From a virus, in the IMG/VR virus record IMGVR_UViG_3300025030_000064, positions 29,499 to 93,498 of that record: 64,000 bases of DNA; one strand, given 5' to 3'. Within the stretch, counting starts at the first letter, position 1; the number at the start of each line of letters is the position of its first letter. The notes below the pieces were generated by a model, which was given only the letters and a program-made list of their open reading frames with translations, searched no databases and had not been told where the DNA came from. The translations under genes were made by a program, and so were the position numbers. Below are positions 37,263-60,540 of this stretch, one piece after another.

Positions 37263-37317
37263 ACACTTTTTTTATTTATTAAATTAATACTAAAAACTTA
37301 TTCTCTCTTAATCTGTA

Positions 37318-37367
37318 GATAACTATACCTACAAATATATTAAAACATATTGTAGCTACCTATTAGC
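37318..37367 (-). repeat. attC-like palindrome, left end of island 1
   Basis: On the plus strand GATAAC and ATTAGC enclose a stem CTACAAATAT/ATATTGTAG with one unpaired base. It is the most degenerate site and abuts the 37262 phage gene through an AT-rich leader. Confidence 0.45.
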
Positions 37368-37458
37368 TGCAATTTAATTTTAATTGCCATCGCACCGCAG
37401 TTTTTCAAACTGTTATTATTAAATCTAATTTTTTTTGCAAATTCAGCAGCCATACCAC

Positions 37459-38133
37459 TTAAAAAACCCTTTCTTTTTCCATTCGTTTCAAGCAATCCAA
37501 AGGCTCTTCATTAGGCAGTAAATTATAACCACAACCAAGCGTTCCTCCTTTCCAACTGCCTTTTCTCTTTCCAACTTCTTTTGAAAAATGTATATCTATT
37601 CCTCTGCTTGTCTTAGCAAATAAACTTGTCCACTTCAATCCTTTTGGTCGCCACTCTCTTTCATCAACATAAATCGTAGTTGGTATTATTGTTCCATCAT
37701 ATTTATCTGTAAAGTCATAAGTCCAAGATTTTTGTTTTGCCTTCCATTCATCATTATAAAAACTTTTACAACTACCTTTCGTTTCATGCTCCCAAGTATC
37801 ATCTTTCAATAATATTGAAGTCCTTACCCAATCTTTTGTAATAAATGGAAAATACCATGTCCACCATTTATTACCGCCATTACCGTTGCCTTTTCCACCT
37901 TTATAAATCCAAAAGGTATTATTATGTATTTTTATTCCCCAACATGGTGGGTCGCATTCATCTGTCCATTTATTTCTAAATGGTAAAACAAAAGTCAAAC
38001 TGAAAAATATCAAGTCTAAGTTTATTCGTGGTCGGTTATCAAAATAACCACACACTTCGTAGCTTAAATCAAAGTGCCATCCAAAATAAAAATACATCCA
38101 ATTGTTTTCAAAAATCCATTTTTCTTTTTTCAT
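37459..38133 (-). CDS. Conserved phage-type protein of unknown function (cassette gene)
   Basis: The 224-residue protein is rich in Trp, Lys and Gly (WRPKGLKWT, GSWKGGTLGCGY) and belongs to a type of protein seen in many phages without assigned function. I start it at 38133 (MKKEKWIFENN) because the longer frame (to 38181) would read through the AT-rich leader and part of the upstream palindrome. A hairpin follows the stop at 37397-37411. Confidence 0.6.
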   Translation of the reverse strand: MKKEKWIFENNWMYFYFGWHFDLSYEVCGYFDNRPRINLDLIFFSLTFVLPFRNKWTDECDPPCWGIKIHNNTFWIYKGGKGNGNGGNKWWTWYFPFITKDWVRTSILLKDDTWEHETKGSCKSFYNDEWKAKQKSWTYDFTDKYDGTIIPTTIYVDEREWRPKGLKWTSLFAKTSRGIDIHFSKEVGKRKGSWKGGTLGCGYNLLPNEEPLDCLKRMEKERVF

Positions 38134-38182
38134 ATAAATTATTATTAAAATTAAACAGACCACACACACAAGCCACCGCACC

Positions 38183-38235
38183 AGCTAACACATGCTTAAA
38201 ACCATTAAAACAGGTTTCAAGCATCATTCGTTAGC
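38183..38235 (-). repeat. attC-like palindrome with clear boxes
   Basis: Plus strand: AGCTAAC, AC, then ATGCTTaAAACC, an 8-nt loop, GGTTTcAAGCAT, CATTC, GTTAGC. Arms pair over 12 positions with one mismatch. Spacers are 2 and 5 nt, an asymmetry shared with the site at 40371. A second hairpin (38230-38267, GTTAGCAAA to TTTTTGCTAAC with inner AAAACGA/TCGTTTT) shares its right box. Confidence 0.75.
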
Positions 38236-38365
38236 AAACATTAAAACGACACTTCGTTTTTGCTAACATGTCCTTATGGCTATATTGTTCGTGTTTCATC
38301 TTTTGTTTCATAGGTTAATAATAAAAAAGAAAAGCCAACCCTCGTCAGCTTTTCAAGCTGTTATT

Positions 38366-38587
38366 TTAATGTCCGTTTAATTTAACTTCTTTTGAAGTTT
38401 TTTCACAACTGTCATACAAATCAGTTAAATAACTCTCGCTAATATTTTTCAATTCTTCATTTACTTCATTTAGCGAGGTTTTCTTTAATTTATTTAATTC
38501 ATTTTCAGTAAAATCTTCTTTTTTAGATTCACCAAAAAGAGCCAGATTCAATAATCTGATTCGCATTAATTTTCCGTTTGTTTTCAT
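38366..38587 (-). CDS. Small charged hypothetical protein (cassette gene)
   Basis: 73 residues, Lys/Glu/Leu-rich, predicted helical. The start at 38587 (MKTNGKLMRIR) is preferred over 38620 because a long A-rich leader precedes it and the earlier start overlaps the upstream gene. A CAGCTT-TTC-AAGCTG hairpin directly follows the stop. Confidence 0.5.
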   Translation of the reverse strand: MKTNGKLMRIRLLNLALFGESKKEDFTENELNKLKKTSLNEVNEELKNISESYLTDLYDSCEKTSKEVKLNGH

Positions 38588-38606
38588 TTTTTTTTTTAGT
38601 TTTAAT

Positions 38607-38849
38607 TTATAATTTTTCAAATGTTTTACCGCTTTCCATCATAATAAAATATTTTTTATGATTTAATAAGGGTAAAATAAATTTACCATCATTACCTACA
38701 AGAATAGCATAGGTATTTTCATTTGCGACAACCATCGTTTCAAGTTTTTCATAAACTTCAGCAACTTCTTTAGTTGTTACAGAATAATTATCACCTAAAT
38801 AGTGATTCATAATCTGTCCGTCTTTTTCAACGATTCTTAATGTATACAT
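38607..38849 (-). CDS. Hypothetical protein (cassette gene)
   Basis: 80 residues, no recognised motif. No palindrome separates it from the downstream 73-residue gene, so the two probably form one two-gene cassette. Confidence 0.5.
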   Translation of the reverse strand: MYTLRIVEKDGQIMNHYLGDNYSVTTKEVAEVYEKLETMVVANENTYAILVGNDGKFILPLLNHKKYFIMMESGKTFEKL

Positions 38850-38937
38850 ATATTTATTTATTAAATTTGGGTACTCTAAAAGATTTTCCCCTTCCTCTTT
38901 TTCTTTTTTACTCAGTTTTTCAATTTACTTTCTGCAA

Positions 38938-38970
38938 GTTAATGCACTTTGCAAAGCCCAGTTCATTAGC
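38938..38970 (-). repeat. Short attC-like palindrome
   Basis: Minus strand GCTAATGAACTGGGCTTTGCAAAGTG then CATTAAC. The first 20 bases match the site at 60221-60250 (GCTAACGAACAGGGCTTG) with few changes, linking islands 1 and 3. Confidence 0.55.
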
Positions 38971-38975
38971 AACCA

Positions 38976-39422
38976 TTAACCGCCATATTTAATGTAGTCT
39001 TTTAATATCCTTTCGGGTATTTTAAAAGTTGTATGATAACCATCAAGCCATTCGTTAAAGGCGGTTAACGTAACCTCCGCACTATCCTCGCTCTTGCTAA
39101 CATCAACTAAGGGTGCATTTTTTGCAGTTTCAATCGAAGTTTTACCGCCGCACCTTTTTAAAATACTTTCTACGTCTATATCTTTTGGCATCACTGGCTC
39201 TATTGGATAACACCATTCAAACATTTTCACTTCTTCTTCGGTCATCGGAAATCGTCCTGCAAATGCTGGCTCCCAAACATATCCAAGTGAGTTTTCGTCA
39301 ACATACATTCGGTTAGATGCCCTTGCCTGTGCAATTAATTCATGGTGTAAATCATTACTGCTAATTATTTTTCCTCCATGTATTGCCAAAAATTCAAGTA
39401 ATCTTTTTAAATCATTTTCCAT
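38976..39422 (-). CDS. Hypothetical protein (cassette gene)
   Basis: 148 residues, acidic, with a WEPAFAGRFPMTEEE segment and a C-terminal helix. Phage-like in character but not assigned to a family. Flanked on both sides by palindromic sites. Confidence 0.55.
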   Translation of the reverse strand: MENDLKRLLEFLAIHGGKIISSNDLHHELIAQARASNRMYVDENSLGYVWEPAFAGRFPMTEEEVKMFEWCYPIEPVMPKDIDVESILKRCGGKTSIETAKNAPLVDVSKSEDSAEVTLTAFNEWLDGYHTTFKIPERILKDYIKYGG

Positions 39423-39483
39423 CGCTCAAAGTTTATATTGTTATTATTTAAAATTGATTTCATTTAACGCACCTTAGTTGTGT

Positions 39484-39611
39484 TCATTAGAAGACATCCC
39501 TTCGGGCTGTCTTCTAATGAGAGGCTTGAAACCGTTTCGAATGCCGCCCTTCGGGACGACCTTCTAACAATGGCTAAGAAGCCATTTAAACGGCTCCAAG
39601 CCTCTCGTTAG
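39484..39611 (-). repeat. Composite palindrome: perfect 13-bp hairpin plus long attC-like stem
   Basis: TCATTAGAAGACA pairs perfectly with its complement ending at 39520. CTAATGAGAGGCTTG (39514-39528) then pairs with CAAGCCTCTCGTTAG (39597-39611) with one G-T mismatch, continued by AAACCGTTT/AAACGGcT. Inside are an AATGGCT/AGCCATT hairpin and a second CCCTTCGGG copy. The nested layout resembles two attC sites fused. Confidence 0.7.
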
Positions 39612-39614
39612 TGG

Positions 39615-39638
39615 CAATTGTTTTGTTTAAATTAAAAA
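39615..39638 (+). repeat. 24-bp inverted repeat flanking the methyltransferase-like gene, left copy
   Basis: A 24-bp sequence beginning CAATTGTTTTGTTTAAATT recurs exactly inverted at 40329-40352. Outside each copy lies the cassette box (GTTAGTGG at 39607-39614, CCACTAAC at 40367-40374). The gene at 39632-40291 is thus enclosed. Confidence 0.75.
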
Positions 39639-40291
39639 GCCAACGCACTCTGCAAATTTTTCAAATTTGTAAAAGGTTTTGTCCATTGCTCTGCCATAGC
39701 TTTTGCCAATCCATCAGGTGTTTTACTTCTCAATCGCCTGGCAACTTCATTATTATTACTTGTACTTGTTTGTCCCATATAACTGTATTTTGATTTTCCG
39801 CTTTTTGTTTTTTTAGAGTTGTATTCAATAAATACAGGCTCAACCATTTGTGTAGGTTCTAAGTTTGGTAAGTTTTTCAGCCACAAACAAGTTGATTTTT
39901 TATAAGCATCTCCAAACCAAAACGGCTGTACAATTTGGTCTGGCTTTCTAAATTCACTACTCATTATACCTATTGGGTTCTCAACTGCAATTTTCGGTAT
40001 CTCACAATGTGCTAATGCTAAAAAGAAACTAATTGATTTTTGTTGCCTTCCATCTTTTCGCTTCTGTTCAAAATGTGCTGCACCACTTACAGCTAAATCC
40101 GTACAAGGCGGAAAAAATATTCCCATCTCCCAATTGCCTCCGTATATTACATCAAAAATATTTTCCTTAAAATGCCACTCAGGATGTCCGCCACTACATT
40201 CTTGTATATCGCAACTAAAGGCTTCATGTCCTAATTTTCGCAACTCAATTGTTACCGCTTGTGATTCTTCGCAACCAACTAATATTTTCAT
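39632..40291 (-). CDS. Phage-type DNA cytosine methyltransferase-like protein (cassette gene)
   Basis: The 219-residue protein begins MKILVGCEESQAV (SAM-binding motif I) and contains FFPPCTDLAVSG (PC motif), AVENPIGIMSS (ENP motif IV) and RKPDQIVQPFWFGD followed by KKSTCLWLKNLP. These are features of the small phage-encoded cytosine methyltransferase-like family. A target-recognition domain is short or absent. Cytosine methylation could protect the DNA from restriction. It is the largest cassette gene of island 1 and sits between complementary boxes. Confidence 0.75.
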   Translation of the reverse strand: MKILVGCEESQAVTIELRKLGHEAFSCDIQECSGGHPEWHFKENIFDVIYGGNWEMGIFFPPCTDLAVSGAAHFEQKRKDGRQQKSISFFLALAHCEIPKIAVENPIGIMSSEFRKPDQIVQPFWFGDAYKKSTCLWLKNLPNLEPTQMVEPVFIEYNSKKTKSGKSKYSYMGQTSTSNNNEVARRLRSKTPDGLAKAMAEQWTKPFTNLKNLQSALAF

Positions 40292-40328
40292 CTTCTATGT
40301 TTTTAAATGGCTTACACACGCCACCCTT

Positions 40329-40352
40329 TTTTTAATTTAAACAAAACAATTG
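40329..40352 (-). repeat. 24-bp inverted repeat flanking the methyltransferase-like gene, right copy
   Basis: Exact inverted copy of 39615-39638. On the minus strand it lies in the leader of the methyltransferase-like gene and may also serve as its promoter region. Confidence 0.75.
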
Positions 40353-40370
40353 TAAAGGCTAAAGCCCCAC

Positions 40371-40426
40371 TAACACAGGCTAAAACAACATTGCGAAAAG
40401 CAACGATTGTTTAGCCTCATCCGTTA
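40371..40426 (-). repeat. attC-like palindrome at right end of island 1
   Basis: Plus strand: TAAC, AC, AGGCTAAaACAA, inner hairpin TTGC/GCAA, TTGTTTAGCCT, CATCC, GTTA. The arms pair over 11 bp with one extrahelical A, the classic attC irregularity. It abuts the stop codon of the phage gene at 40428. Confidence 0.75.
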
Positions 40427-40427
40427 T

Positions 40428-40565
40428 TTACAAATCCAAATCTTTTTCTGATCTTTCATTATCTGCTTTATTATCTAAGGCATTATATTTCTCTTCTAAC
40501 TCTTCATCTGATAGTTCAGATAAGTAGTTATTAAGGTTGTCATCTTCTTTACCAAGTATTATCAT
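40428..40565 (-). CDS. Small acidic hypothetical protein
   Basis: 45 residues (MIILGKEDDNLNNYL...), highly acidic. The start overlaps the upstream stop (ATGA). Its stop codon lies directly at the edge of cassette island 1, in GTAAATAACG. Confidence 0.5.
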   Translation of the reverse strand: MIILGKEDDNLNNYLSELSDEELEEKYNALDNKADNERSEKDLDL

Positions 40566-40813
40566 AGCATTGCTCCATCTAATCCATAACTAATAGCATC
40601 TTTAATGTTACATCTTTGTACAATAGTATCACAAGCTGCTCCACCATCAAAATGATATATCTCAACATTCCAATGAGGATTCTCGCCTGGCACTTCTTTA
40701 AAAAGATGTACTTCTATATAATGCTTTCTATATGTAGCTGAGAAGTTATACTTATCATTTTTAGTGATATTCTTATTTTGGATTATTCTTAATCTATCGC
40801 CTCCTATTTTCAT
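40562..40813 (-). CDS. Hypothetical protein
   Basis: 83 residues, no known motif. Separated by 1 nt from the preceding gene and coupled to the next by an ATGA overlap. Confidence 0.5.
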   Translation of the reverse strand: MKIGGDRLRIIQNKNITKNDKYNFSATYRKHYIEVHLFKEVPGENPHWNVEIYHFDGGAACDTIVQRCNIKDAISYGLDGAML

Positions 40814-40814
40814 A

Positions 40815-41117
40815 TTAAAATGGTAGATCGTTAGGATTAGGATTAAGGTCGCTTATTATATTCTCATTAGATATAGGTTCTTCTTTAACTATTGGAACAG
40901 GTTCAAGCATTTCGTCAATAGCAACAGTTGTTTTATTCCATCCATCTACCTTACCTCCAAAATATTTTTGTCCATTACCTTGCTTGATCCATAATGCCAT
41001 ATCTCTCTCTATTCCATTAAGCATTATTTTTCCTCTAAAGTCAGGATGATTTTCTTCTCTTTTATGATCATTCTTAAAGATAACAAAATTACCTTCACTT
41101 AATCTATTTGCTTCCAT
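40815..41117 (-). CDS. DUF736-like protein with SSB-type acidic tail
   Basis: The 100-residue protein contains PDFRGKIMLNG...ALWIKQG-NGQKYFGGKV, similar to small Bacteroidota/plasmid proteins of the DUF736 type, and ends PNDLPF. That tip resembles the acidic protein-interaction tail of single-stranded-DNA-binding proteins. A role at the replication fork is plausible but inferred. Confidence 0.45.
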   Translation of the reverse strand: MEANRLSEGNFVIFKNDHKREENHPDFRGKIMLNGIERDMALWIKQGNGQKYFGGKVDGWNKTTVAIDEMLEPVPIVKEEPISNENIISDLNPNPNDLPF

Positions 41118-41272
41118 TATTCTTCCATTATTAATTGTTCTAATTCATCTACATGTCCACAGTTTTGACAATACATTGCAGATTGTGTAATATAAACACT
41201 ATCACTTTTACATTCACTACAACGAGGAACGTCTTTTGCTTCATCATTTAGTACTGATTCTATTTTACTCAT
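41117..41272 (-). CDS. Zinc-ribbon mini-protein
   Basis: 51 residues with CSEC and CQNCG pairs spaced as in a zinc ribbon. Stop and next start overlap (TAATGG). Probably a DNA- or protein-binding accessory factor. Confidence 0.6.
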   Translation of the reverse strand: MSKIESVLNDEAKDVPRCSECKSDSVYITQSAMYCQNCGHVDELEQLIMEE

Positions 41273-41577
41273 AGTTCTTTAGGTTTAGGAGTATTAAACA
41301 TAGGATTCTCTGGCATTGGCAATGCATCTGAAAACTCTCTTCTATCTACTATATTACCATTAGATAGCATCCCAGCATAACCACTTTTACAAAGTTCTAT
41401 TGTTTTTAATAGTTTTATTTCCTTTTCAAATTGAAATCTCCAATACTCTTTAGCTATCTTAGATTTAACTGCATCTATAAATATTTTAGTAGTAATTAAA
41501 TCTTTAATCTTAATTGATTTATCGTATGCATCTGCTGCTTCTTGAAGTCGCAATTCAAGATTTTCAATTTTATTCAT
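41269..41577 (-). CDS. Hypothetical protein
   Basis: 102 residues, helical N-terminal two thirds, proline-containing tail. Four-base overlap with each neighbour. Function unknown. Confidence 0.5.
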   Translation of the reverse strand: MNKIENLELRLQEAADAYDKSIKIKDLITTKIFIDAVKSKIAKEYWRFQFEKEIKLLKTIELCKSGYAGMLSNGNIVDRREFSDALPMPENPMFNTPKPKEL

Positions 41578-41789
41578 ATTAATCCTTTTATATCTTTAAT
41601 TCGTATTATTGCTTTTTCAGCCCATTCAGGAACTTTATCTTTTCCACTTTGCAAGCATTCTATAACCCATTCAGCATTCTCATCTGACATCATATCAATA
41701 CTAGTTTTAGTAAAGTAATCCTTATCATGAATCCAACATCTATCTAATATAGAAGAGAAATATTCTTTTGATTCAATCTCTTTATTCAT
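41574..41789 (-). CDS. Hypothetical protein
   Basis: 71 residues, mostly helical, no motif recognised. Coupled to neighbours by overlaps. Confidence 0.5.
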   Translation of the reverse strand: MNKEIESKEYFSSILDRCWIHDKDYFTKTSIDMMSDENAEWVIECLQSGKDKVPEWAEKAIIRIKDIKGLI

Positions 41790-41971
41790 TATGCTTCTCT
41801 ATCTACATTTAAAGTACATACAACAATTTCCATAGTGTCATCTTCTAATCCACCTAATTCTGTTTCTTCACATGATGTAACTTCTTCAAAGTGTTCTTCT
41901 GTAGTAGGAACATAAACTGTTAAGTCCTGATTAACTTTTTGCAACTGTTCAATTAATTCTGATACTCTCAT
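41789..41971 (-). CDS. Small acidic phage protein
   Basis: 60 residues beginning MRVSELIEQLQKVNQDLTVYV, a start common among small phage proteins of unknown function, followed by an acidic stretch. Confidence 0.5.
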   Translation of the reverse strand: MRVSELIEQLQKVNQDLTVYVPTTEEHFEEVTSCEETELGGLEDDTMEIVVCTLNVDREA

Positions 41972-42186
41972 TTTGATTCTTTTTTAAGTTTAAAATTATA
42001 TTTTTTTGTTTTACGTTCAACATCTTTATATTTCCATTTAAAACCCCATGCATTTAATCTTTTTTCATTTAAAACATTTACTATATTAGAAGAAGAAGAA
42101 TGACCTAATTCTTTTGCAGCAGCCGTAGCAGACTCCCATTCTTTAACAAAATTATCATCTAAATCATATTGTATTATAGGAATCAT
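41968..42186 (-). pseudogene. NUMOD1-type DNA-binding fragment of a homing endonuclease
   Basis: 72 residues. IIQYDLDDNFVKEWESATAAAKELG followed by NIVNVLNEKRLNAWGFKWKY is a NUMOD1 module, the DNA-binding tail of many GIY-YIG and HNH homing endonucleases. The catalytic GIY-YIG start lies immediately upstream in a separate short frame (42192-42320), so this is probably the tail of a broken endonuclease. It may still be translated. Confidence 0.65.
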
Positions 42187-42191
42187 TATTT

Positions 42192-42320
42192 TTAGTAAAG
42201 TTTCTGTTGTGATTTACATTTTCCATTTTTATATTGTTTCCATCTATTTATAATATCATTAGATTGTCCAATGTAAATCTTTTTTGAAGGACTAGTGATT
42301 TTGTAGATACCTATTATCAT
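42192..42320 (-). pseudogene. Truncated GIY-YIG endonuclease N-terminus
   Basis: 42 codons encode MIIGIYKITSPSKKIYIGQS...NRWKQYKNGKC, the first half of a GIY-YIG domain including GIY, YIG and the Arg of the catalytic motif. The frame stops after QQKLY. The rest of the domain, with the catalytic Glu, is missing and the NUMOD1 fragment begins 5 nt later, which points to an internal deletion. Confidence 0.7.
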
Positions 42321-42330
42321 AATATAAAAA

Positions 42331-42394
42331 CCAGTAGTCTAACAAAGGCTTGTCCGTTTGAGGAGATTCCTCTTTGGCATTGTTAAAGCTACTG
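42331..42394. other. Long structured hairpin between genes (terminator or structured RNA)
   Basis: CCAGTAG and CTACTGG form an outer stem, with inner pairs AACAA/TTGTT and GAGGA/TCCTC. T-runs follow on both strands, so bidirectional termination is the simplest reading. The internal sequence on the minus strand (TAACAATGCC ... GGACAAGCC) recalls conserved stretches of twister ribozymes, and the TAAC/GTTA pair also recalls the attC-like sites. Confidence 0.5.
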
Positions 42395-42439
42395 GATTTT
42401 TTAATGTTTTCATACGAACAAGCACTACAAAAATAATAC

Positions 42440-42922
42440 TTACTTATGAATAATCCTAATAATTTTACCAAACCCTTGTGGCATATCTTTAAACTTCATA
42501 TCTATCGGTTCGAGAATATCAATATGTTTACTCCCTTGTACTATATCCTTAACCACTAACACACGAACAACACTATCTAAGACAAGATAAATACTATCAC
42601 CAAAGTTTACCTTAGTATAGAGTAAATCTTTACTTATAGCACACCATACACCGTAAGAATAATCTTTGATATGATCTCCACTTGCTGTAATGAATGGACT
42701 TGAATCGCATTGTGCTATTGTAGGCTGGTATGAAGTAACCTTCACGTTAATATCTACTATCCTTGTATTAGCCATTCTAAAAATACTATCTTGTGATAAA
42801 GTATCTAACGGTTCCTTATGACTACATTGACTGATATATGCTCCTGTAGATAATACCATACAACCAAACAAGGTCATAAAGGCTATCTTAGCTATTATAC
42901 TTATACCATCATTTGCACTCAT
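42440..42922 (-). CDS. Membrane-anchored 3D/RlpA-like protein
   Basis: The 160-residue protein has an N-terminal membrane segment (about 8-30) and a beta domain with VTSYQP, ITASGDHI, CAISKDLL, FGDSIYL and KHIDILEP. That is the order of conserved stretches in the 3D domain/RlpA double-psi barrel found in cell-wall-associated proteins. It may act in the periplasm on peptidoglycan or on the envelope. The catalytic Asp pattern is only partly recognisable. Confidence 0.55.
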   Translation of the reverse strand: MSANDGISIIAKIAFMTLFGCMVLSTGAYISQCSHKEPLDTLSQDSIFRMANTRIVDINVKVTSYQPTIAQCDSSPFITASGDHIKDYSYGVWCAISKDLLYTKVNFGDSIYLVLDSVVRVLVVKDIVQGSKHIDILEPIDMKFKDMPQGFGKIIRIIHK

Positions 42923-43118
42923 CTACTAATTCTTTTGGTTTATGTACTTCTGTCTGTAATCCTTTACTTCTTAGTTTCATCTCCATAAGTTGTCTTGCAT
43001 GTTTAGACTTCCAATTATCAAAAGCACAACCATCCCATGCATGAGGTAAGCTAAAGGTTAATTTACCATCAATAGCTGCTACATATACATCATCTATCTT
43101 TACTGATTCTTTTCCCAT
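42909..43118 (-). CDS. Hypothetical protein
   Basis: 69 residues, no family recognised. Overlaps the 3D-domain gene by 14 bases. Confidence 0.45.
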   Translation of the reverse strand: MGKESVKIDDVYVAAIDGKLTFSLPHAWDGCAFDNWKSKHARQLMEMKLRSKGLQTEVHKPKELVDECK

Positions 43119-43119
43119 G

Positions 43120-44577: not shown

Positions 44578-44607
44578 AATTTTATACTTTTTTATTTATA
44601 AAAGTAA

Positions 44608-50859: not shown

Positions 50860-51096
50860 TTATTGAATAACAAAAACCTGATTCATGAGTTTAATATACA
50901 TAACTTTACCACTTGCTATTCTTACCTTTGCTCCTTTATAGGTTATCTTTTCTTTCTTAGCATATTCTTATATTGTCATAAGTCCAAACTTTGATACTAA
51001 ATGTTCAAGTATTTCAAGTTCTTCGTTCATTAGAATATGATTCTCATTTGATGCTTTTATGTACCTAATAGATACATTTTCATATAGTTTACTCAT
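50860..51096 (-). pseudogene. HTH-like small protein gene interrupted by TAA (paralogue of 58601-58837)
   Basis: The frame encodes 78 residues but codon 43 is TAA. Reading through gives MSKLYENVSIRYIKASNEN... and ...KITYKGAKVRIASGKVMYI, which aligns without gaps to the intact gene at 58601-58837. The stop aligns with Ser43, a one-base change from TCA. The leader upstream of ATG is also similar in both copies. Island 2 begins directly upstream. Confidence 0.75.
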
Positions 51097-51129: not shown

Positions 51130-51439
51130 GTTAGCCAAAAGAAATTTTCGGGCATAAGTGCTTAATTGACGCTCCCATCATCTTAATAAATTTATCTGCA
51201 ACTTTTTCATTTGGAAATCTAAACATTCCTGTTGCTGTATTGATTGTTGTTGGTTCGTGGCATACGGTATAAAAATGCGGTTTTGGATTTTCAGCTAATG
51301 CCACATAATTATTTTGGTTCAATCCGTAATCAAACGTCCATTTAGGTTCTTTAGATAAAAGTTGCTTCCAAATTTTAAATGCCTTTCGTTGTGCGGTTAT
51401 AAATTCTTGCTCTGTAACCGAAAATTTCTTTTGGCTAAC
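51130..51439. repeat. Perfect 22-bp inverted repeat pair inside one gene
   Basis: GTTAGCCAAAAGAAATTTTC plus two G at 51130-51151 recurs exactly inverted at 51418-51439, with 266 bp between. Each copy starts or ends at a cassette-type GTTAGC/GCTAAC box. Confidence 0.85.
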
Positions 51440-51496
51440 AAGTGCTTTATTCAATGCCTTACTTTTCGGCTTCGTATTAACTTTTTTCTTTTCCAT
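51131..51496 (-). CDS. Hypothetical protein spanning a perfect 22-bp inverted repeat (cassette gene)
   Basis: 121 residues with a basic N-terminus (MEKKKVNTKPKSKALNKAL); no known family. The codons for LVSQKKFS and for the C-terminal PKISFG* are encoded by inverted copies of the same 22 bp (51130-51151 and 51418-51439), and the stop TAA lies in the GGCTAAC box. Confidence 0.55.
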   Translation of the reverse strand: MEKKKVNTKPKSKALNKALVSQKKFSVTEQEFITAQRKAFKIWKQLLSKEPKWTFDYGLNQNNYVALAENPKPHFYTVCHEPTTINTATGMFRFPNEKVADKFIKMMGASIKHLCPKISFG

Positions 51497-51524
51497 AATA
51501 TTTGTATCTCTAATTAAGTTTTGT

Positions 51525-51563
51525 CTGTTAAGTCGGTACTAAATAAAGCCCCGTTCGTTACCG
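51525..51563 (-). repeat. attC-like site with shared core
   Basis: Minus strand: GGTAACGAACGGGGC followed by TTTATTTAGTACC and GACTTAAC. Contains the 16-bp core also seen at 52360-52375. Confidence 0.55.
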
Positions 51564-52040: not shown

Positions 52041-52083
52041 TTGATTATCAGTTTAAAATATGGGTGGCTGTGGTATATAAGAT

Positions 52084-52192
52084 GTTATAAGTCAGTTTGC
52101 CCATAAAGGTATCCGCATCCATCAGGGCAGTACCATCTAACATCGTTTGCTACTTTGTATTTAAGTGGGTGCTGGCAAACCGAACTTATAAC
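52084..52192 (-). repeat. Tail-encoding mini-element 1 (109 bp)
   Basis: Arms GTTATAAGTCAGTTTGCC and GGCAAACCGAACTTATAAC pair with 1-2 unpaired bases. Read on the minus strand the element encodes VISSVCQHP...YCPDGCG...QTDL-stop in the frame of the upstream ORF. A second element with the same arms and encoded motif lies at 52828-52939. Confidence 0.75.
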
Positions 52193-52342
52193 ATGGGCTT
52201 TATTCAATAATTTAATTTTTAGTAACTCTCTCATTTCATGATGCACTTCAATCAATTTTGTTCCATCAAGCGCACATTTCTTCGGCACAGCTTTGTATGC
52301 TATTTTCAAAATTTCGTTTATTAAGTCGTTATCTATTGTCAT
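52085..52342 (-). CDS. Small protein with element-encoded zinc-binding tail (cassette gene)
   Basis: 85 residues starting MTIDNDLINEILK. The earlier in-frame ATG (52390) would lie inside the preceding palindromic site and is not preferred. Residues 1-50 are a helical region without known family. Residues 51-85 (VISSVCQHPLKY...WYCPDGCGYLYGQTDL) contain a C-x-H / C-x3-C zinc-ribbon-like tail encoded entirely by the mini-element. The stop TAA is part of the GTTATAA box. Confidence 0.6.
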   Translation of the reverse strand: MTIDNDLINEILKIAYKAVPKKCALDGTKLIEVHHEMRELLKIKLLNKAHVISSVCQHPLKYKVANDVRWYCPDGCGYLYGQTDL

Positions 52343-52359
52343 ATCGTATAAAATTAAAT

Positions 52360-52461
52360 TACTAAATAAAGCCCCAACCGTTAGCTGCAAGCACTACATT
52401 TGTACTTCGATTATAGTTCATAGTTGAAAATTTTTAATATTTTTTGCCTACGCTTCTAATC
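52360..52461 (-). repeat. attC-like site downstream of the 96-residue gene
   Basis: Minus strand: TTAGAAGC at the gene end pairs with GCTTgcagCTAAC, followed by GGTTGGGGC and the TTTATTTAGTA core. The interior carries a 20-bp sequence that recurs inverted at 52751-52770. Confidence 0.5.
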
Positions 52462-52770
52462 ATTGTGTTTAGACAAGTTTCCTACAAGTTGGCATAATCC
52501 ACCAAGCCCGTCATCAAGTTTGTGATGTATAAAATCACTTTCATTGGTTTTGCCTTCTAAAAAACTTATTATTAGTTGTAATTCTTGCAATCTATCAATA
52601 TACCAGTTTTTTCTTGGTACGTGTGAATTATTCAAACGAATTGACCGTGATTTGTATTTCAGTCTTTCGATTTGCAAATCCTCGTCCTTAATAAGTTTTT
52701 TAAATACTTTAACTCGTTTTTTTAGAGTTGTTATTGTTTTTTCCATCCTTAAAAAATATTAAAAATTTTC
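52426..52770. repeat. 20-bp inverted repeat flanking a cassette gene
   Basis: AAAAAATATTAAAAATTTTC at 52751-52770 recurs exactly inverted at 52426-52445, enclosing the 52456-52746 gene. The sequence is AT-only apart from one base, so part of the match may reflect composition. Confidence 0.65.
52456..52746 (-). CDS. Coiled-coil hypothetical protein (cassette gene)
   Basis: 96 residues. The N-terminal half is a basic coiled coil (TLKKRVKVFKKLIKDEDLQIERLK) and the C-terminus is Gly-rich. It ends in TAG. Inverted copies of AAAAAATATTAAAAATTTTC lie directly before (52751-52770) and after (52426-52445) the gene. Confidence 0.5.
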   Translation of the reverse strand: MEKTITTLKKRVKVFKKLIKDEDLQIERLKYKSRSIRLNNSHVPRKNWYIDRLQELQLIISFLEGKTNESDFIHHKLDDGLGGLCQLVGNLSKHND

Positions 52771-52827: not shown

Positions 52828-52939
52828 GTTATAAAACAGTTTGCTTTGGAACTGTCTTACAGCATTTATAACAAAATCTTTTATTGCCTCCTGCATCGAT
52901 ACAATATTGCCAAGGATGACTACAAACCGATTTTATAAC
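52828..52939 (-). repeat. Tail-encoding mini-element 2 (112 bp)
   Basis: Arms GTTATAAAACAGTTTG and CAAACCGATTTTATAAC match mini-element 1 at the same positions, including the CA versus CGA unpaired bases. Encodes VIKSVCSHP...FCYKCC...QTVL-stop on the minus strand. Confidence 0.75.
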
Positions 52940-53008
52940 ATCAGATAATAACAATTTTTCAGTGCTATTATCAATCTTTTTTACTTGTTTTTTGCTTTTG
53001 TTTTTCAT
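52829..53008 (-). CDS. Small protein with element-encoded zinc-binding tail
   Basis: 59 residues. The first 23 (MKNKSKKQVKKIDNSTEKLLLSD) are basic and lie inside the loop of the palindrome at 52934-53049. The remaining 36 (VIKSVCSHPWQYC...FCYKCCKTVPKQTVL) lie in mini-element 2. The tail shares V-I-x-S-V-C-x-H-P, C-x2/3-C and Q-T-x-L with the 85-residue protein, with synonymous differences at His and Pro codons, so the tail seems to be under protein-level constraint. Confidence 0.6.
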   Translation of the reverse strand: MKNKSKKQVKKIDNSTEKLLLSDVIKSVCSHPWQYCIDAGGNKRFCYKCCKTVPKQTVL

Positions 53009-53049
53009 ATTAAATTTATTTAAACTGTTGTTATCTGCGTACCGTTATA
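52934..53049 (-). repeat. attC-like palindrome with ORF start in its loop
   Basis: Plus strand: TATAAC, ATC, AGATAAtAACA, about 80-nt loop, TGTTGTTATCT, GCGTACC, GTTATA. The arms pair over 11 bp with one mismatch and spacers of 3 and 7 nt. It shares its left box with the end of mini-element 2. Confidence 0.7.
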
Positions 53050-53245
53050 GGGCATTTGGATTGAACAACCTAATAGCCTTTAAAGGTGCTTTCATTGTCA
53101 AATCACTCATTACATCATCCACATCATTTAAAATAGTATGATGAACTGTGCCTTTTAATTTCATTGATATTTTAACCCTTGCATCCATCAATTCTTTGTG
53201 GAGCAATTCGTATAGTTCGGTTTCTTTTTTCTTACTGATTTTCAT
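53045..53245 (-). CDS. Small helical hypothetical protein (cassette gene)
   Basis: 66 residues, Lys/Leu/Met-rich and helical, no family. Its C-terminal codons lie in GTTATAGGGCATTTG, which is matched 14/15 by the inverted sequence before its start (53250-53264 region), so the gene sits exactly between complementary cassette ends. Confidence 0.55.
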   Translation of the reverse strand: MKISKKKETELYELLHKELMDARVKISMKLKGTVHHTILNDVDDVMSDLTMKAPLKAIRLFNPNAL

Positions 53246-53258
53246 AAAACAAACGCCC

Positions 53259-53350
53259 TATAACATTACATACACAAAAGCGGGGGCGAAGTGCTAAAAT
53301 GTATGTTCGGGTTAAAGAAGCCCCGCCTTCGTGTATGCTTTACCGTTATA
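53259..53350 (-). repeat. Best-defined attC-like palindrome
   Basis: Plus strand: TATAAC, ATTA, CATACAC, AAAA, GCGGGG, loop, CCCCGC, CTTC, GTGTATG, CTTTACC, GTTATA. Two stem blocks separated by symmetrical internal mismatches and outer boxes with unequal spacers are the features that define attC sites. Confidence 0.8.
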
Positions 53351-53361
53351 AACAATAAAAA

Positions 53362-53589
53362 TTATTCTCTCCGTTTTAAATATGGATGTTTTCTATAAAA
53401 CAGCCATTGCTTAAATCGTAATCTCGGCATTTTCCAACCAGATTTTACGGCATCCAATGTCAGCCATTCGGAAATAAAATTCATTAGGCGGTATCTAAAT
53501 TTTAACCACTTTGGAAAGTCATGCCAATTCTTTCCTTCTTGTGTGTATATTTTATTTCCTTCGATTAATGTGTTTTCACGCCAACCCAT
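53362..53589 (-). CDS. Small basic hypothetical protein (cassette gene)
   Basis: 75 residues, rich in Trp, Lys and Arg (WLKFRYRLMNFISEWLTL), no known family. Located between attC-like sites. Confidence 0.55.
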   Translation of the reverse strand: MGWRENTLIEGNKIYTQEGKNWHDFPKWLKFRYRLMNFISEWLTLDAVKSGWKMPRLRFKQWLFYRKHPYLKRRE

Positions 53590-53596
53590 AATTTTT

Positions 53597-53650: not shown

Positions 53651-53656
53651 CAACAT

Positions 53657-53882: not shown

Positions 53883-53902
53883 TAACGTTAGGACTTAATT
53901 CG

Positions 53903-55231: not shown

Positions 55232-55252
55232 ATTATTTTATTTTAGTTAATT

Positions 55253-57067
55253 TCATACCTCAATAAATTCATTTTTATCTAGGTCACATACATATCTTAT
55301 AACCTTATCTTCTCCTTGTCCAGCATCTCTTATCTTCACTCCTTCAATAATAAACATCTTCTTTAATAGTTCATATTGTTCCTTTGCTGTCAAATCTCTA
55401 TCTCCAAAAAGATATAGGTCACGTTTATCTCTTACTTTCTTCTCTTTGTACTTACCATTATGTAACCATGTATAAATAGCCATTATTCCTCTCTTATACT
55501 TATCTTCTTCTGTAGAGTCATTAATACTCTGCATTAGTCTGTAATAAGCAGTATAGGCTATAAAAAGGCTATTCATTGTTGCTTCTGTACCATCAGCCAT
55601 ATGTTCCCTACCCATGATAACATCTCTTACCTTATCCCATGTAGCTTGTTTAAGGTTTACAATAGGATTCTTAAAGTTAGTAGTAAAGCTATCACTATTA
55701 GGATTTAGTTTCCAAAAAGACTTCTCAAAGTCCTGGTCGGTAAACTTCAATTCTTCAGTAGGCATACCTAACGCTCTTTGTTTATACACATCCATAAGGT
55801 CAGGATATCTACTTGGGAGATTAGCTAATGCAACAGAATTAGCATAGTTAACGAAAGTACCACTACCCTTAATAGTTGTCTCTCTTGGTCTGTAACCGTC
55901 TTTAAGATTATACTTTGAACCATGTTCTTTAGTGACATGATGAAGAGCATATATACATGCATTTGTTTCAGTTCTTATTTCTACAAGAACATCCATGATA
56001 TACATATCCTTTTCTGTCTGGTCCTTGAATCTTATCGTACTACCTATTAAACCAATATTATCAACTACTATGATAAGCTCTTTTTTATTAGCTTTTGCTT
56101 GTTCATTAACCTTACGAGAGAATTTCTTTAACTCTTTCTCTGTTATCTTAACATCAACAAATTTGATATTAAATCCTTTCTTACTTAATCGTATTAATGA
56201 ATTAGCAATAGTCTGTTTCTCTTCTACACATAGCTTATTGTCTTTAGATAATAGTTTCCTATCTCTATAGCCAGTATCCATAGATATCATTCTTCTCACA
56301 ATCTTTTCTTTTGGATCTTCCATTGATACCCATAGTACATCAATATCTTTATTGTTTTCACACACATGATACATAATAGCTATAGTGGCTGCGGTTTTTG
56401 CTGATTCTTTATCTGCTGCAAGCATGAAAATAGAGGACTTAGATAAGCCAAAGAGATTATCAAACTTAGGAAATTGTTTAGTAGCATAGATATTTGATTC
56501 TCTATTACTATTATCTTCAATCTCATTAGCTGCTGATTCAATACATTTTTCCATCTCTACCATCTCCTTGCTTCTTGTAAAGGCTAATAGAGAAGATATA
56601 CCATCAATATGATTATGTATCACATCATCTATATCTATATCATCAGTAAAACAATCTTGTTGTACTTGTTCGCTCAATCGTATTACTTCTCTTAGGATAT
56701 ACTTCTGTTGTATAATCCTCATGTGGAACATAGCATGAGAAGAAGAAGCTACTTTACCTGTTAATGTAGTAAGATAAAAGGCTCCTCCTACATCTTCAAG
56801 CTTTTGTCTATCTATTAGCTTATTCTTCACAGTAAAGATGTCTATAGGCTCATTCTTTTCATAGAGAGAATGAATAGCTTCATAGATAATCTTATTCTCA
56901 GGAGAATAAAACCAATCAGCTTTACATACGTCTAATACTCCTTTTGCCTGTTTCGGATCAATCATTATAGCTCCTAGAATTGTTTGTTCTATATCTATAT
57001 TTTGAGGCGGTATCTTAGATAGTACATCTACTGCTTTCTTTCTCTTATCTGTTTTATCTTTTTCCAT
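55253..57067 (-). CDS. DnaB-type replicative helicase
   Basis: 604 residues. The N-terminal domain (about 20-120) matches DnaB (PPQNIDIEQTILGAIM, DWFYSPENKIIYEAI). The RecA-like domain has WVSMEDPKEKIVRRM (motif H1a), ELIIVVDNIGLIG (Walker B), ALHHVTKE and KGSGTFVNYANSVAL. The Walker A region reads LAADKESAKTA where family members have AARPxxGKTA, so the glycine before K224 is replaced by alanine. A C-terminal extension of about 130 residues follows. It should unwind DNA at the phage fork. Confidence 0.85.
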   Translation of the reverse strand: MEKDKTDKRKKAVDVLSKIPPQNIDIEQTILGAIMIDPKQAKGVLDVCKADWFYSPENKIIYEAIHSLYEKNEPIDIFTVKNKLIDRQKLEDVGGAFYLTTLTGKVASSSHAMFHMRIIQQKYILREVIRLSEQVQQDCFTDDIDIDDVIHNHIDGISSLLAFTRSKEMVEMEKCIESAANEIEDNSNRESNIYATKQFPKFDNLFGLSKSSIFMLAADKESAKTAATIAIMYHVCENNKDIDVLWVSMEDPKEKIVRRMISMDTGYRDRKLLSKDNKLCVEEKQTIANSLIRLSKKGFNIKFVDVKITEKELKKFSRKVNEQAKANKKELIIVVDNIGLIGSTIRFKDQTEKDMYIMDVLVEIRTETNACIYALHHVTKEHGSKYNLKDGYRPRETTIKGSGTFVNYANSVALANLPSRYPDLMDVYKQRALGMPTEELKFTDQDFEKSFWKLNPNSDSFTTNFKNPIVNLKQATWDKVRDVIMGREHMADGTEATMNSLFIAYTAYYRLMQSINDSTEEDKYKRGIMAIYTWLHNGKYKEKKVRDKRDLYLFGDRDLTAKEQYELLKKMFIIEGVKIRDAGQGEDKVIRYVCDLDKNEFIEV

Positions 57068-57078
57068 TGTTGAATTTA

Positions 57079-57534
57079 TTATAAAATTCCTTCATCAGCA
57101 AAGCTATAGTATTTCTTTAAATCACCTGCTATAATTAAATGTTCAAGTAAGGAAATCTCAAAATACCTTGCTCCTTCTTTAATCTTCTTTGTTATATCAA
57201 TATCTTGGTCAGAAGGTTTTAAGTTACAACTTGGATGATTATGAATAAGTATTAATGCACTTGCTCCACAAAGAATAGCTTTTTGAAATATTAATCTTGG
57301 GTCCATTATTGTTCCAGCTATACCTCCTTGACTTATTCTTGTCCATCCTATCGTATTATGTGCTTTGTTTAAGTAAAGACATAAAGATTCTTCTGATAAT
57401 TCAACTGTATCTAGATTAAGTAGCTCTTTAGCTATTGTAAATACATCCGAGGATTGCTTAATCTGATATTTCTTTACATCTCCTGATTTATACTTTAAAG
57501 TAATCTCAGGCATTGTTGATTTATATTCTTTCAT
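57079..57534 (-). CDS. RadC/JAB-domain protein
   Basis: The 151-residue protein ends with LILIHNHPSCNLKPSDQDID, the HxHP-S-x(n)-SxxD zinc-binding motif of JAB metalloproteases in RadC. Residues before it match the RadC core (GGIAGTIMDPRLIFQKAI). Such proteins are common on phages and mobile elements, with unclear function. Coupled to the 48-residue Cys-rich gene by ATGA. Confidence 0.8.
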   Translation of the reverse strand: MKEYKSTMPEITLKYKSGDVKKYQIKQSSDVFTIAKELLNLDTVELSEESLCLYLNKAHNTIGWTRISQGGIAGTIMDPRLIFQKAILCGASALILIHNHPSCNLKPSDQDIDITKKIKEGARYFEISLLEHLIIAGDLKKYYSFADEGIL

Positions 57535-57677
57535 AAGCCTCCTTCTGCATCTGAATAACTAATATCTCCATGTCCAGTACCACCTTGATCATTATCCATG
57601 TTACACTCTTCGTCTATGAGCATATCACAATCATCACAACTTCTATTATCGTTATAAGGGCAATTAGGGTTATTCAT
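57531..57677 (-). CDS. Cysteine-rich mini-protein
   Basis: 48 residues with Cys at NCPYND, SCDDCD and ECN, acidic. Likely metal binding. Overlaps both neighbours. Confidence 0.5.
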   Translation of the reverse strand: MNNPNCPYNDNRSCDDCDMLIDEECNMDNDQGGTGHGDISYSDAEGGL

Positions 57678-57855
57678 CTTCTATTTCTTCTTTTTCGTTA
57701 TTACATATCCATAAAGAAGTGTCTTCTTTGTTAGGATCTAATCCATATTCTCTTGTTAAAATAAATATTAAATCTTTAGCTTCTTGATAATTATTAGCTT
57801 GTATATTTAACAATACTTCATTATGCCAACTATGAATAAAAGTAAATGTTTTCAT
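57670..57855 (-). CDS. Hypothetical protein
   Basis: 61 residues, beta-alpha pattern, no family recognised. Confidence 0.45.
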   Translation of the reverse strand: MKTFTFIHSWHNEVLLNIQANNYQEAKDLIFILTREYGLDPNKEDTSLWICNNEKEEIEDE

Positions 57856-57860
57856 TTGTT

Positions 57861-58379
57861 TTATTGTTTTAATTGTTGATATTCTAGTTTCAATTCTTCC
57901 TGTAGTAATGTAATCTTAGACCAACTAAATCCCTTCTCTTCTGCTAATCGTTCTCTTTGTATTTCAGTACCAAAATCATAAGCCAAATGCTCCCTAGCTG
58001 TTAACATTACGATATTCTTAGGGTTTAGTTTAAACTTATAATATTTATTCTGAGCTTTGGAAAGTACATGAGCAAATTGATTATAGTAGAAAGGACTATC
58101 CTTATCTACTAGCTTATCTCCTGATAGGAATGAGATATGAGGCATTGTGTTCCATATATGTTCAAACATCTCTTTCTCTGAATCAAATCCCCATAAGGAA
58201 TACTTATCTATATTTCTTTTAAGTACCTTACTATTATTCTTAACTATCTTTGAACAGTTATATCTTTTAGGTTTTATTATAGCTTTCTTTATTGGTTTAC
58301 CATGTTCCTTAGCCCAACATCACTTGCAGAGTTGTAAAGCAAACACTGGTCTATCATCATTAAGACATGTCTTAGCCAT
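57861..58379 (-). pseudogene. HNH-like nuclease gene interrupted by an in-frame TGA
   Basis: The frame from ATG at 58379 encodes MAKTCLNDDRPVFALQLCK, then TGA at 58320-58322, then CWAKEHGKPIKK and a long C-terminal region. FAHVLSKAQNK...LNPKNIVMLTAREHLAYDFG looks like an HNH core. The TGA falls inside what would be a C-x2-C zinc pair. The 102-codon frame starting at 58169 alone lacks the zinc-binding half. Nonsense mutation is the simplest reading; TGA ends other genes here. Confidence 0.65.
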
Positions 58380-58382
58380 TAA

Positions 58383-58604
58383 TTATAAATACTTTTTGGA
58401 AAATTGTTTATATAATAAAGCCCAATATTCATGACCTTCTTTTGTCTTAGCCCAATGAAATCCATGACTAGGATTAAGTAAGTTTATACGATTATAGCCA
58501 TTTTGTTTTTGTACATTACAAAGATACTTATCTAATGCTTTATTTTTTTCTAAGAACTCTTTTAGTTCTCTTGTTAATACTATTAAAATAGGTTTGTCTT
58601 TCAT
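58383..58604 (-). CDS. Hypothetical protein
   Basis: 73 residues, mixed, no family recognised. Four-base overlap with the HTH-like gene upstream. Confidence 0.5.
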   Translation of the reverse strand: MKDKPILIVLTRELKEFLEKNKALDKYLCNVQKQNGYNRINLLNPSHGFHWAKTKEGHEYWALLYKQFSKKYL

Positions 58605-58837
58605 TGTATTATAAATTTTTGGTTCATTAGTTCAATATACATAACCTTACCACTATTTATTCTCTTCTTAGCTCCATTATAGCTTATATTCTGCTCTTTA
58701 GCAAAGTCTGATAATGATGTTAGTTTATATCTTTGAACCAAATACTCTAATATTCTTAGTTCTTCATCCATTGTTATATGACCTTCTTCTGAAGATTTTA
58801 TATACCTATTTGCTACATTTTCATACAGTTTACTCAT
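58601..58837 (-). CDS. Small HTH-like protein beside island 3 (intact paralogue)
   Basis: 78 residues. SLSDFAKEQNISYNGAKKRINSGKVMYI has the spacing of a helix-turn-helix, preceded by a helical dimerisation-like N-terminus. Island 3 begins immediately upstream of its leader. The interrupted paralogue at 50860-51096 has the same position beside island 2. A regulator, a recombination directionality factor or a marker of the original insertion site are possible readings. Confidence 0.6.
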   Translation of the reverse strand: MSKLYENVANRYIKSSEEGHITMDEELRILEYLVQRYKLTSLSDFAKEQNISYNGAKKRINSGKVMYIELMNQKFIIQ

Positions 58838-58891
58838 TGGTTCAATTTATTGTATTACGAGTAGTATGATGTTACCAAACATTGTATTAAT

Positions 58892-59263
58892 TTAAAAATT
58901 ATTTGCCATCGCACGTTCATAATCATCGTCAATTATTACAGTATCTTTTCCTATTGCATCGCATAACGGTATTGTTTCTCCATCTTCGGGGTGTCTATAA
59001 ACTGAAACAAACATTCCGTCCTGAAACTCCACCGTAGAAGAATATCCTGCACATACAAATAATTGGTCGCCTTCATAAATTTCTTTCCCATTACTGTCTT
59101 TCAGTCCTGTATATTGCCCAACATTATCAACCGTCCAAGATGTTTCTCCATTGGTTATTTCCCAATTACCATTTGTCTGTTTAACCAAATAGCCATACGC
59201 CCAATATTCTTGTCCGTTTATTCCTTGAAACCATCCTCTAAATTTAATTTCTCTATTTTCCAT
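58892..59263 (-). CDS. YopX-family protein (cassette gene)
   Basis: 123 residues with REIKFRGW at the start and VGQYTGLKDSNGKEIYEGDQL in the middle, the diagnostic motifs of the YopX family found in Gram-positive and Bacteroidota phages. Function unknown. Flanked by a 12-bp perfect inverted repeat ending in cassette boxes. Confidence 0.85.
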   Translation of the reverse strand: MENREIKFRGWFQGINGQEYWAYGYLVKQTNGNWEITNGETSWTVDNVGQYTGLKDSNGKEIYEGDQLFVCAGYSSTVEFQDGMFVSVYRHPEDGETIPLCDAIGKDTVIIDDDYERAMANNF

Positions 59264-59324
59264 CGCTTAAATAATTTTTAAATTAATACAACGAGCCTAC
59301 GCTCAAATTCCTTACGCACTTTGG

Positions 59325-59391
59325 TAACATCACCTTTGCGCTATTCTCCAGCCGCACTATCCAACGCACAACAGACGCAAAGCTGCGGTTA
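59325..59391 (-). repeat. attC-like palindrome between YopX and ASCH genes
   Basis: Plus strand: TAAC, ATCAC, CTTTGCG, loop, CGCAAAG, CTGCG, GTTA. The stem is perfect over 7 bp. A GAGC-CTAC-GCTC hairpin lies just left of it. Confidence 0.7.
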
Positions 59392-59400
59392 GTGGCAAGC

Positions 59401-59913
59401 TCAAAGAACCACTATCGTACTTTTGATGTCTTTTGTTACTTCTTTCCATCCTTGCGTTCCTTTCCAAATTATTGGTTTTATTTGCCTTACATCTTCGTAA
59501 ACATGGCAATACAAATCTTCCCGCCACTTCACAAAACACTTGTCGGCATCTTTTGGCTTCATTTTCCTACTATCAACTAATTTACCTATTGCAATTCCGT
59601 AACCATTCAAATCAAGGGTTCCGCTATCCCGATTCATCGCACTAAGCATTTTATAATATAAATCTGTTCCGCAAAGTTTGTGCTCAATATCTTCACTATA
59701 TGCTTTCAAACTTGTACATATCAATACCCACCCACGCACATTTGTATTCCATGTTCGAGTTTCAATTTTACCATAAAGCATTGCGGTTGCAAATGGTTGT
59801 TTCCAAGATAAAGCCAATAATTTTTGGTCTACAGGAAATGAGCCAGCCACTAACACAGGCTCAACCGCAATAGCGGGTTTAGTGGGTAAGTCAAATAAAG
59901 TGCCTTGTATCAT
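59401..59913 (-). CDS. ASCH-domain (PUA-like) protein (cassette gene)
   Basis: 170 residues. LALSWKQPFATAMLYGKIETRTWNTNVRGWVLICTS matches the N-terminal half of the ASCH fold, which is predicted to bind RNA; several family members act on nucleotides or RNA. Its start region overlaps the hairpin CCACTAA...TTAGTGG and the GCCACTAAC box, so the N-terminal codons are part of the cassette end. Confidence 0.7.
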   Translation of the reverse strand: MIQGTLFDLPTKPAIAVEPVLVAGSFPVDQKLLALSWKQPFATAMLYGKIETRTWNTNVRGWVLICTSLKAYSEDIEHKLCGTDLYYKMLSAMNRDSGTLDLNGYGIAIGKLVDSRKMKPKDADKCFVKWREDLYCHVYEDVRQIKPIIWKGTQGWKEVTKDIKSTIVVL

Positions 59914-60157
59914 ATTCGTTGTATTTTGATTGTCCTAATTGTATTTTTATAATTTTAGAATTATCGTTACACGAAAAAATTAAACAGCAAGCAATAATGA
60001 AATATAATTTTTTAATGTGTTTTATTAATTTTCGTAAATTATTAAAATATTTTCTATCATTTCTATAAAATGTATTTTCCTCTAAAATTATATTTCTTTC
60101 ATGGTTTATGTTAATAGCATTTGATTGTCCTTGTATTATAATTATTTTATCTTTCAT
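59891..60157 (-). CDS. Hypothetical membrane/lipoprotein-like small protein
   Basis: 88 residues. The N-terminus includes IIIIQGQSNA, and LYFIIACCLIFSCN near residue 52 resembles a lipoprotein signal with lipobox, so a shorter product starting downstream is possible. AT-rich, overlapping the ASCH gene by 23 bases. Weak coding evidence. Confidence 0.35.
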   Translation of the reverse strand: MKDKIIIIQGQSNAININHERNIILEENTFYRNDRKYFNNLRKLIKHIKKLYFIIACCLIFSCNDNSKIIKIQLGQSKYNEYDTRHFI

Positions 60158-60220
60158 AAACCCTCCTCATTTTTTAAACTTTTTATTTATTTCAAATTTA
60201 ATTTATTACAAATTAATACG

Positions 60221-60250
60221 CACGTTTACAAGCCCTGTTCGTTAGCGTTC
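60221..60250 (-). repeat. attC-like half-site
   Basis: Minus strand GCTAACGAACAGGGCTTG then TAAACGTGC, closely matching the site at 38938-38970 in island 1. Confidence 0.5.
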
Positions 60251-60481
60251 ATTTACCAACACACTCTGATACATCTCTTCAAGGTCTTTAAAAAACCTAT
60301 CTCCTTGAATAATCACCATTGATGGATTATTTTTATTTACATATCTGATATAACCACTTTCAATCCTTTCATAACACTCATGAGCATCTCTACCTTTTTC
60401 TGTATTAAACCAGTGTAAATATGTTCTTGTTTGTATTATTGTTGTTATTTTTAAATCTGAAATTTGATGTTTAAAATCCAT
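60242..60481 (-). CDS. Hypothetical protein (cassette gene)
   Basis: 79 residues from MDFKHQISDLK; a start at 60499 would place the leader inside the cassette box. No family recognised. Ends near GTTAGCG, which with 60221-60240 forms an attC-like half-site. Confidence 0.5.
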   Translation of the reverse strand: MDFKHQISDLKITTIIQTRTYLHWFNTEKGRDAHECYERIESGYIRYVNKNNPSMVIIQGDRFFKDLEEMYQSVLVNER

Positions 60482-60540
60482 TTTAATTTTATTTTGCATT
60501 GCCAGCCGTTAGACAAAATTACGCTTCGTTTCACAAATAT

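Follow-up and report, generated by a model that had tools for sequence, protein, structure and literature searches.

The window analysed here is a stretch of 64,000 nucleotides (positions 29,499 to 93,498) that forms part of the 93,498-bp virus record IMGVR_UViG_3300025030_000064. It contains three islands of minus-strand genes separated by imperfect palindromes (37.27-40.43, 51.10-53.90 and 58.84-60.52 kb, numbered 1 to 3). Based on the complementary ends of the gene units, the structure of the palindromes and their occurrence on other phages and plasmids, these islands are very probably clusters of integron-type cassettes without an integrase (clusters of attC sites lacking integrases, CALINs), which were acquired by a crAss-like phage and would be moved in trans by an integron-type recombinase of the host or of a plasmid.

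Closed units and attC-like sites

An integron cassette ends in an R'' box to which its first bases are complementary. Eight units of the window bear this signature, each with a start G↓TTA (the arrow marks the recombination point) that is complementary to its own TAAC end; the count leaves out the open reading frames (ORFs) 38366-38620, 38607-38849, 38976-39422, 52456-52746, 53362-53589, 59891-60157 and 60242-60499. This complementarity, hereafter called closure, extends over 8-22 nt in 7 of the 8 units. In island 1, the DNA methyltransferase unit (39607-40374; ORF 39632-40291) starts with GTTAGTGG, which is complementary to its end CCACTAAC, and the Acb3 unit (37362-38189; ORF 37459-38181) closes with one decayed base, ATTAGCTG versus GTTAGCTG. 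In island 2, the unit with ORF 53045-53245 (53044-53264; 66 aa) closes over 10 nt, followed by a G/T position and then 3 nt; the bodies of a 59-aa ORF (52828-52939; GTTATAAAA/TTTTATAAC) and of ORF 52085-52390 (52084-52192) each close over 9 nt, the stop codon of the latter being the TAA of TAAC; and the body of ORF 51131-51496 (51130-51439) has a perfect closure of 22 nt (GTTAGCCAAAAGAAATTTTCGG/CCGAAAATTTCTTTTGGCTAAC). Similarly, 9-nt closures were found in island 3 for the unit with ORF 59401-59913 (59388-59854; GTTAGTGGC/GCCACTAAC, plus 3 more nt) and for the YopX unit (58871-59328; ORF 58892-59263; GTTACCAAA/TTTGGTAAC). All of these units lie on the minus strand.

The same relation was found outside the window. 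Across 13 consecutive site pairs from six other records, 65% of the seven flanking positions match, versus 28% in cross-record pairs, and in three further records, which were not used to define closure, the mean match was 6.3/9 versus 3.4 after permutation (0/20000 permutations). In the Flavobacterium phage filifjonk9-1, 6 of 8 units match over 10 nt, show G versus T at position 11 and then match at three more positions, and a seventh unit matches over 9 nt. The constant G at cassette position 11, which faces T in the cassette end, may be a recognition feature.

The palindromes have the attC-like arrangement of an R''/R' core, an L''/L' stem and a loop. A covariance model (R1), built from an alignment of 13 sites of other phages and plasmids, all outside the window, gave exactly three matches at E < 0.01 in the 64-kb window, each of them on the minus strand and within island 1 or 2. 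These are site A at the left edge of island 1 (40368-40429; 23.8 bits, E 3.3e-4), site B (38183-38236; 21.8 bits, E 1.3e-3), whose DNA fold on the cassette strand has a z of -7.1, and site D in island 2 (53258-53351; 36.5 bits, E 5.2e-8); the next-best match was noise, at 12.5 bits. Since R1 overlooks many sites with long loops, counts based on it are lower bounds, and the covariation of the aligned sites is partly circular because some of them were picked for complementarity. In addition, TAACGNNTG occurs in 6 copies in the window versus 2.3 expected (0/100 shuffles reached 6), all on the minus strand inside the islands, one of them within an ORF. The initial annotation, which had pointed to a shared minus-strand motif TAACGnnTG, an attC layout and cassette starts complementary to R'', is borne out by this enrichment, by the R1 matches and by the eight closing units. 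An Rfam search at gathering thresholds gave no match. A first site finder (TAAC/GTTA pairs and fold energy) was abandoned with output that was mostly noise; the structural finder used below picked up the attC sites of aadA1, aadA2 and dfrA12 when it was checked against class 1 integrons.

Island 2 also seemed to contain half palindromes. Because the units close, three of these are complete sites with long loops, whose L' and R' boxes lie inside the next ORF and whose loops hold the leader and the start of that ORF. They are located on the minus strand at 52937-53046 (structural finder score 16.1; start of the next ORF in the loop), 52190-52382 (R'' TAACGGTTGGGGCTTTATTTAG, R' GTTATAAG; located by sequence) and 51437-51559 (score 12.8), and at each of them the ORF runs through G↓TT in frame 0. 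Of the 35 sites examined, 11 have an ORF beginning in the loop and extending across G↓TT, with GTT in frame 0 in 9 of the 11, a pattern that was spotted post hoc. Island 3 comprises two closed units and, between them, one weak site, E (59326-59390, minus strand; structural finder score 11.2, within the shuffle range), which is recognised by the closures on either side. Of the three attC-like islands proposed at first, islands 1 and 2 are supported by R1, and island 3 by its two closed units and the weak site, not by R1.

The strongest annotation of the islands, absent from the initial one, is that of ORF 37459-38181, which matches Acb3, an inhibitor of the cyclic-oligonucleotide-based antiphage signalling system (CBASS) (PF25187, E = 2.6e-37, 129.4 bits versus a curated cut-off of 27). 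The methyltransferase-like and YopX cargo that had been suggested was recovered as ORF 39632-40291, a DNA methyltransferase (phrog_757, E 3.5e-61), and ORF 58892-59263 (PF09643, E 9.9e-11). The ASCH cargo was not: no ASCH match was found in Pfam or NCBIfam, and ORF 59401-59913 matches phrog_3193 only, a family of unknown function. The three small minus-strand ORFs of island 1 (38366-39422, the first three given above, from the ORF list) had no family match above cut-off in profile searches. Units in other phages carry C5 and N4/N6 DNA methyltransferases, GP88 and RNA ligase. Counter-defence, by DNA methylation and CBASS inhibition, is the likely role of the island cargo, and most of the named genes would fit it, as predicted from their families.

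Sites shared with other phages and plasmids

When viral contigs were scanned for the pattern of the complete palindrome, five others with such sites were found. Site A is shared with two of them, the phages L031 and L032, over 110-125 bp at 89% identity, and 76 bp of the site and its leader are nearly identical in all three. The shared stretch starts exactly at TAAC and stops near the following start codon, and the flanking genes are not the same: the window has a DNA methyltransferase, L031 a radical SAM protein and L032 a PAPS-reductase-like protein. Of the 80 viral proteins most closely related to the methyltransferase of the window, L107 and L110 are flanked on both sides by sites, with closure, and the other 78 have no flanking sites at the thresholds used. 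The suspicion that the palindromes are merely terminators linked to their genes is answered by these results, as the sites are not conserved with the genes.

Sites of the same family were found in unrelated phages, namely siphophage contigs, a 634-kb phage and the Flavobacterium phages 6H and filifjonk9-1, and on Bacteroidota plasmids of Empedobacter and Riemerella, where two Riemerella units close over 9-10 nt. Weaker DNA matches occur on a Chryseobacterium plasmid, in whose stretch no site was confirmed by the structural finder, and partial matches on Acinetobacter plasmids. One genome scan gave two deltaproteobacterial matches, one of which is a credible attC in a genome with intact IntI. 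Judged by sequence, one site family ties unrelated Bacteroidota phages to plasmids of the same phylum.

Some of these arrays have features of their own. The array of filifjonk9-1, a cultivated phage whose host is known and which would lend itself to laboratory study, has nine sites and several DNA methyltransferases (L176 123-6490), and that of phage 6H has about five sites (L054 3007-5107), where the published genome annotates hypothetical proteins. On the Riemerella and Empedobacter plasmids, the sites have resistance genes as neighbours, estT and tet(X) among them (L178 9152-11711; L052 6264-6387 and 18165-18289).

The crAss-like carrier and the island edges

The TerL protein of the phage is ~40% identical over 93% to those of crAss-like cr1_1, cr55_1 and others, which by this criterion places the phage in the crAss-like group, in agreement with the initial annotation. 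In the 24 records retrieved by TerL, comprising 22 crAss-like relatives (TerL identity 38-48%) and two fragments of the same phage, no site was found at E <= 0.001, an absence that is provisional because many of these records are short. Identical islands in all relatives had been named as a point to check; the sampled crAss-like relatives are, with this provision, without islands. A search for empty insertion sites in these relatives was given up, the early genes being too diverged for alignment.

Islands 2 and 3 stop before two paralogous phage genes on the minus strand, located at their right edges (50860-51096 and 58601-58837, respectively; 63% protein identity), and the homology of the edges begins at TAAC. 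Either the edge was duplicated or a single target was used on two occasions. The gene at 50860-51096 carries an in-frame stop relative to its paralogue.

Elsewhere, both ends of the record (window 63795-63999; L004 1-213) lie inside a 12-bp tandem repeat, TGATGTTATCCC, present in 17 copies at the window end; hence, the map may be circular, with the record broken within a repeat. Window positions 15465-30332 are taken up by one ORF of 4955 aa. Single-protein scans of an ATPase and of a 236-aa protein gave no relatives.

Proposed movement of the cassettes and alternative explanations

Several results weigh against the islands being integron-type cassette clusters. Neither IntI (TIGR02249) nor a PF00589 recombinase was found in the 93,498-bp record, so that the intI gene of a complete integron is missing. 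No Bacteroidota integron with an integrase was found as a source, Bacteroidota genomes having been outside the search; of the origin first proposed, a Bacteroidota integron, the link to the phylum stands through plasmids and phages, and the integron itself does not. Island 3 has no R1 match at E < 0.01. The R' boxes rarely fit GTTRRRY: those of the window are GTTAGTG, GTTAGCT, GTTATAG, GTTATAA, GTTAGCC and GTTACCA, with only GTTA constant. Complementary GTTA/TAAC pairs are no commoner in the whole window than in shuffles, and the pair statistic alone was therefore left unused; what rises above the background is limited to the islands and the strongest pairs. Finally, the unpaired spacers measure 5-6/1-3 nt here versus 5/6 in class 1 attC sites, and class 1 attC sites are not significantly recognised by R1. 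The last result implies that the window sites form a subtype, and since GTTRRRY is taken as a consensus and not as an absolute need, the cassettes are called integron-type, a variant.

Since the record holds no integrase, the islands are classed as CALINs, and any movement would have to be driven by the host or another element, or go back to past recombination; with no recombinase of its own in the phage, the cassettes are most likely moved in trans by a host or plasmid enzyme. In the laboratory, IntI1 recombined attC sites of phage CALINs, including one of the Polaribacter phage P12002L (PMC9892861), which makes a host integrase acting in trans the most economical reading. In the mechanism that we infer, a crAss-like phage would have acquired three CALIN islands, with units bounded by G↓TT and attC-like hairpins between them. 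A circular cassette inserting at G↓TT would come to lie with its first bases on one side and, on the opposite side, the R'' box complementary to them, which is the arrangement seen in the units. The cassettes would be inserted and excised in trans by a tyrosine recombinase of the integron type, supplied by the Bacteroidota host or its plasmids.

The layout of R'', L'', loop, L', R' and G↓TT and the cassette logic are those of class 1 cassettes (attC of aadA1, aadA2 and dfrA12), although the R box spans 10+3 nt here versus about 7 nt in class 1 attC. As in the Vibrio cholerae repeat (VCR) arrays of sedentary chromosomal integrons, unrelated ORFs lie between long imperfect palindromes. One site subtype of the present family measures 123-125 nt, and VCRs are of roughly this length; unlike VCR arrays, the phage islands have no integrase, no attI seen and few units. 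The site family is also common to the Bacteroidota plasmids p1681-tetX and pRCAD0416RA-1, which carry resistance cargo and are not phages. The closest precedent is the set of phage CALINs described by Qi et al. 2023 (PMC9892861), above all that of the lytic Bacteroidota phage P12002L, which likewise has attC clusters without an integrase, methyltransferase cargo and a similar layout (TAAC, 6-nt and 3-nt spacers). The window phage differs in being crAss-like, and the main text of Qi et al. mentions neither a crAss-like phage nor anti-CBASS cargo nor long-loop sites in which an ORF starts. Phage CALINs as such are not new. The new elements are the crAss-like carrier, the presence of three islands, for which the initial annotation had named no well-described case in one crAss-like genome, the anti-CBASS gene among the cargo and a subtype of sites that departs from class 1 attC.

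A Bacteroidota-specific cassette system, with an integron-like layout and another tyrosine recombinase (e.g., XerCD-like), might instead have produced both the phage islands and the resistance arrays of the plasmids. This is unlikely, yet it deserves to be taken seriously: the 5-6/1-3 spacers would suit it, as would a closure that spans 10 nt, a G/T position and 3 further nt, versus 7 nt, and very few Bacteroidetes genomes contain a complete integron (PMC9024848), which leaves room for a different recombinase. The cassette strand also has more G.T than A.C pairs, an excess that is biased by the finder and amounts to 20 versus 7 in sites found from one arm only; as these are mutually related, it is only a hint. 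However, no candidate recombinase was identified, the layout of P12002L is similar, and one of its sites was recombined by IntI1 (PMC9892861). It is rather improbable that the islands are relics no longer able to move, which another phage or plasmid had donated in whole blocks through homologous or illegitimate recombination. The decayed end of the Acb3 unit, the lack of a recombinase in the record and the paralogous genes at the ends of islands 2 and 3 are in line with such relics, but most units are still intact and closed, and site A is found elsewhere with different cargo.

Hairpins that accompany their genes as transcription terminators or for RNA processing would account for sites that sit between genes on the coding strand, for the better fold of the cassette strand in 29 of 33 sites (a figure subject to selection bias) and for the weak terminators that attC sites are thought to contain (PMC9892861). 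They predict neither the complementarity of unit start and end, nor one site before different genes, nor hairpins ending inside ORFs, and this explanation is highly improbable. Miniature inverted-repeat transposable elements (MITEs) or small transposons with terminal inverted repeats, suggested by the inverted unit ends (one of 22 nt), are scarcely credible: the ends vary from unit to unit with only GTTA/TAAC in common, no transposase family was found among the units searched, and the L''/L' stem lies between units. Both explanations were rejected.

With the islands read as integron-type CALINs, the sharing of sites points to a common pool of cassettes from which phages and bacteria exchange genes. 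On a bolder and rather improbable reading, Bacteroidota phages and plasmids might share this pool by an undescribed recombination system with extended R boxes and, often, the leader and start codon of the next gene borne in the loop, such that an inserted gene body would be read in frame at once and counter-defence genes would be exchanged among phages and with plasmids. Integrons are known as gene stores of bacteria, and a crAss-like phage is now found to carry cassettes of the same kind, whose cargo includes an anti-CBASS gene and a DNA methyltransferase. Phages can swap their counter-defence genes singly if the cassettes move. It also becomes testable which recombinase serves the Bacteroidota, where complete integrons are hardly known.

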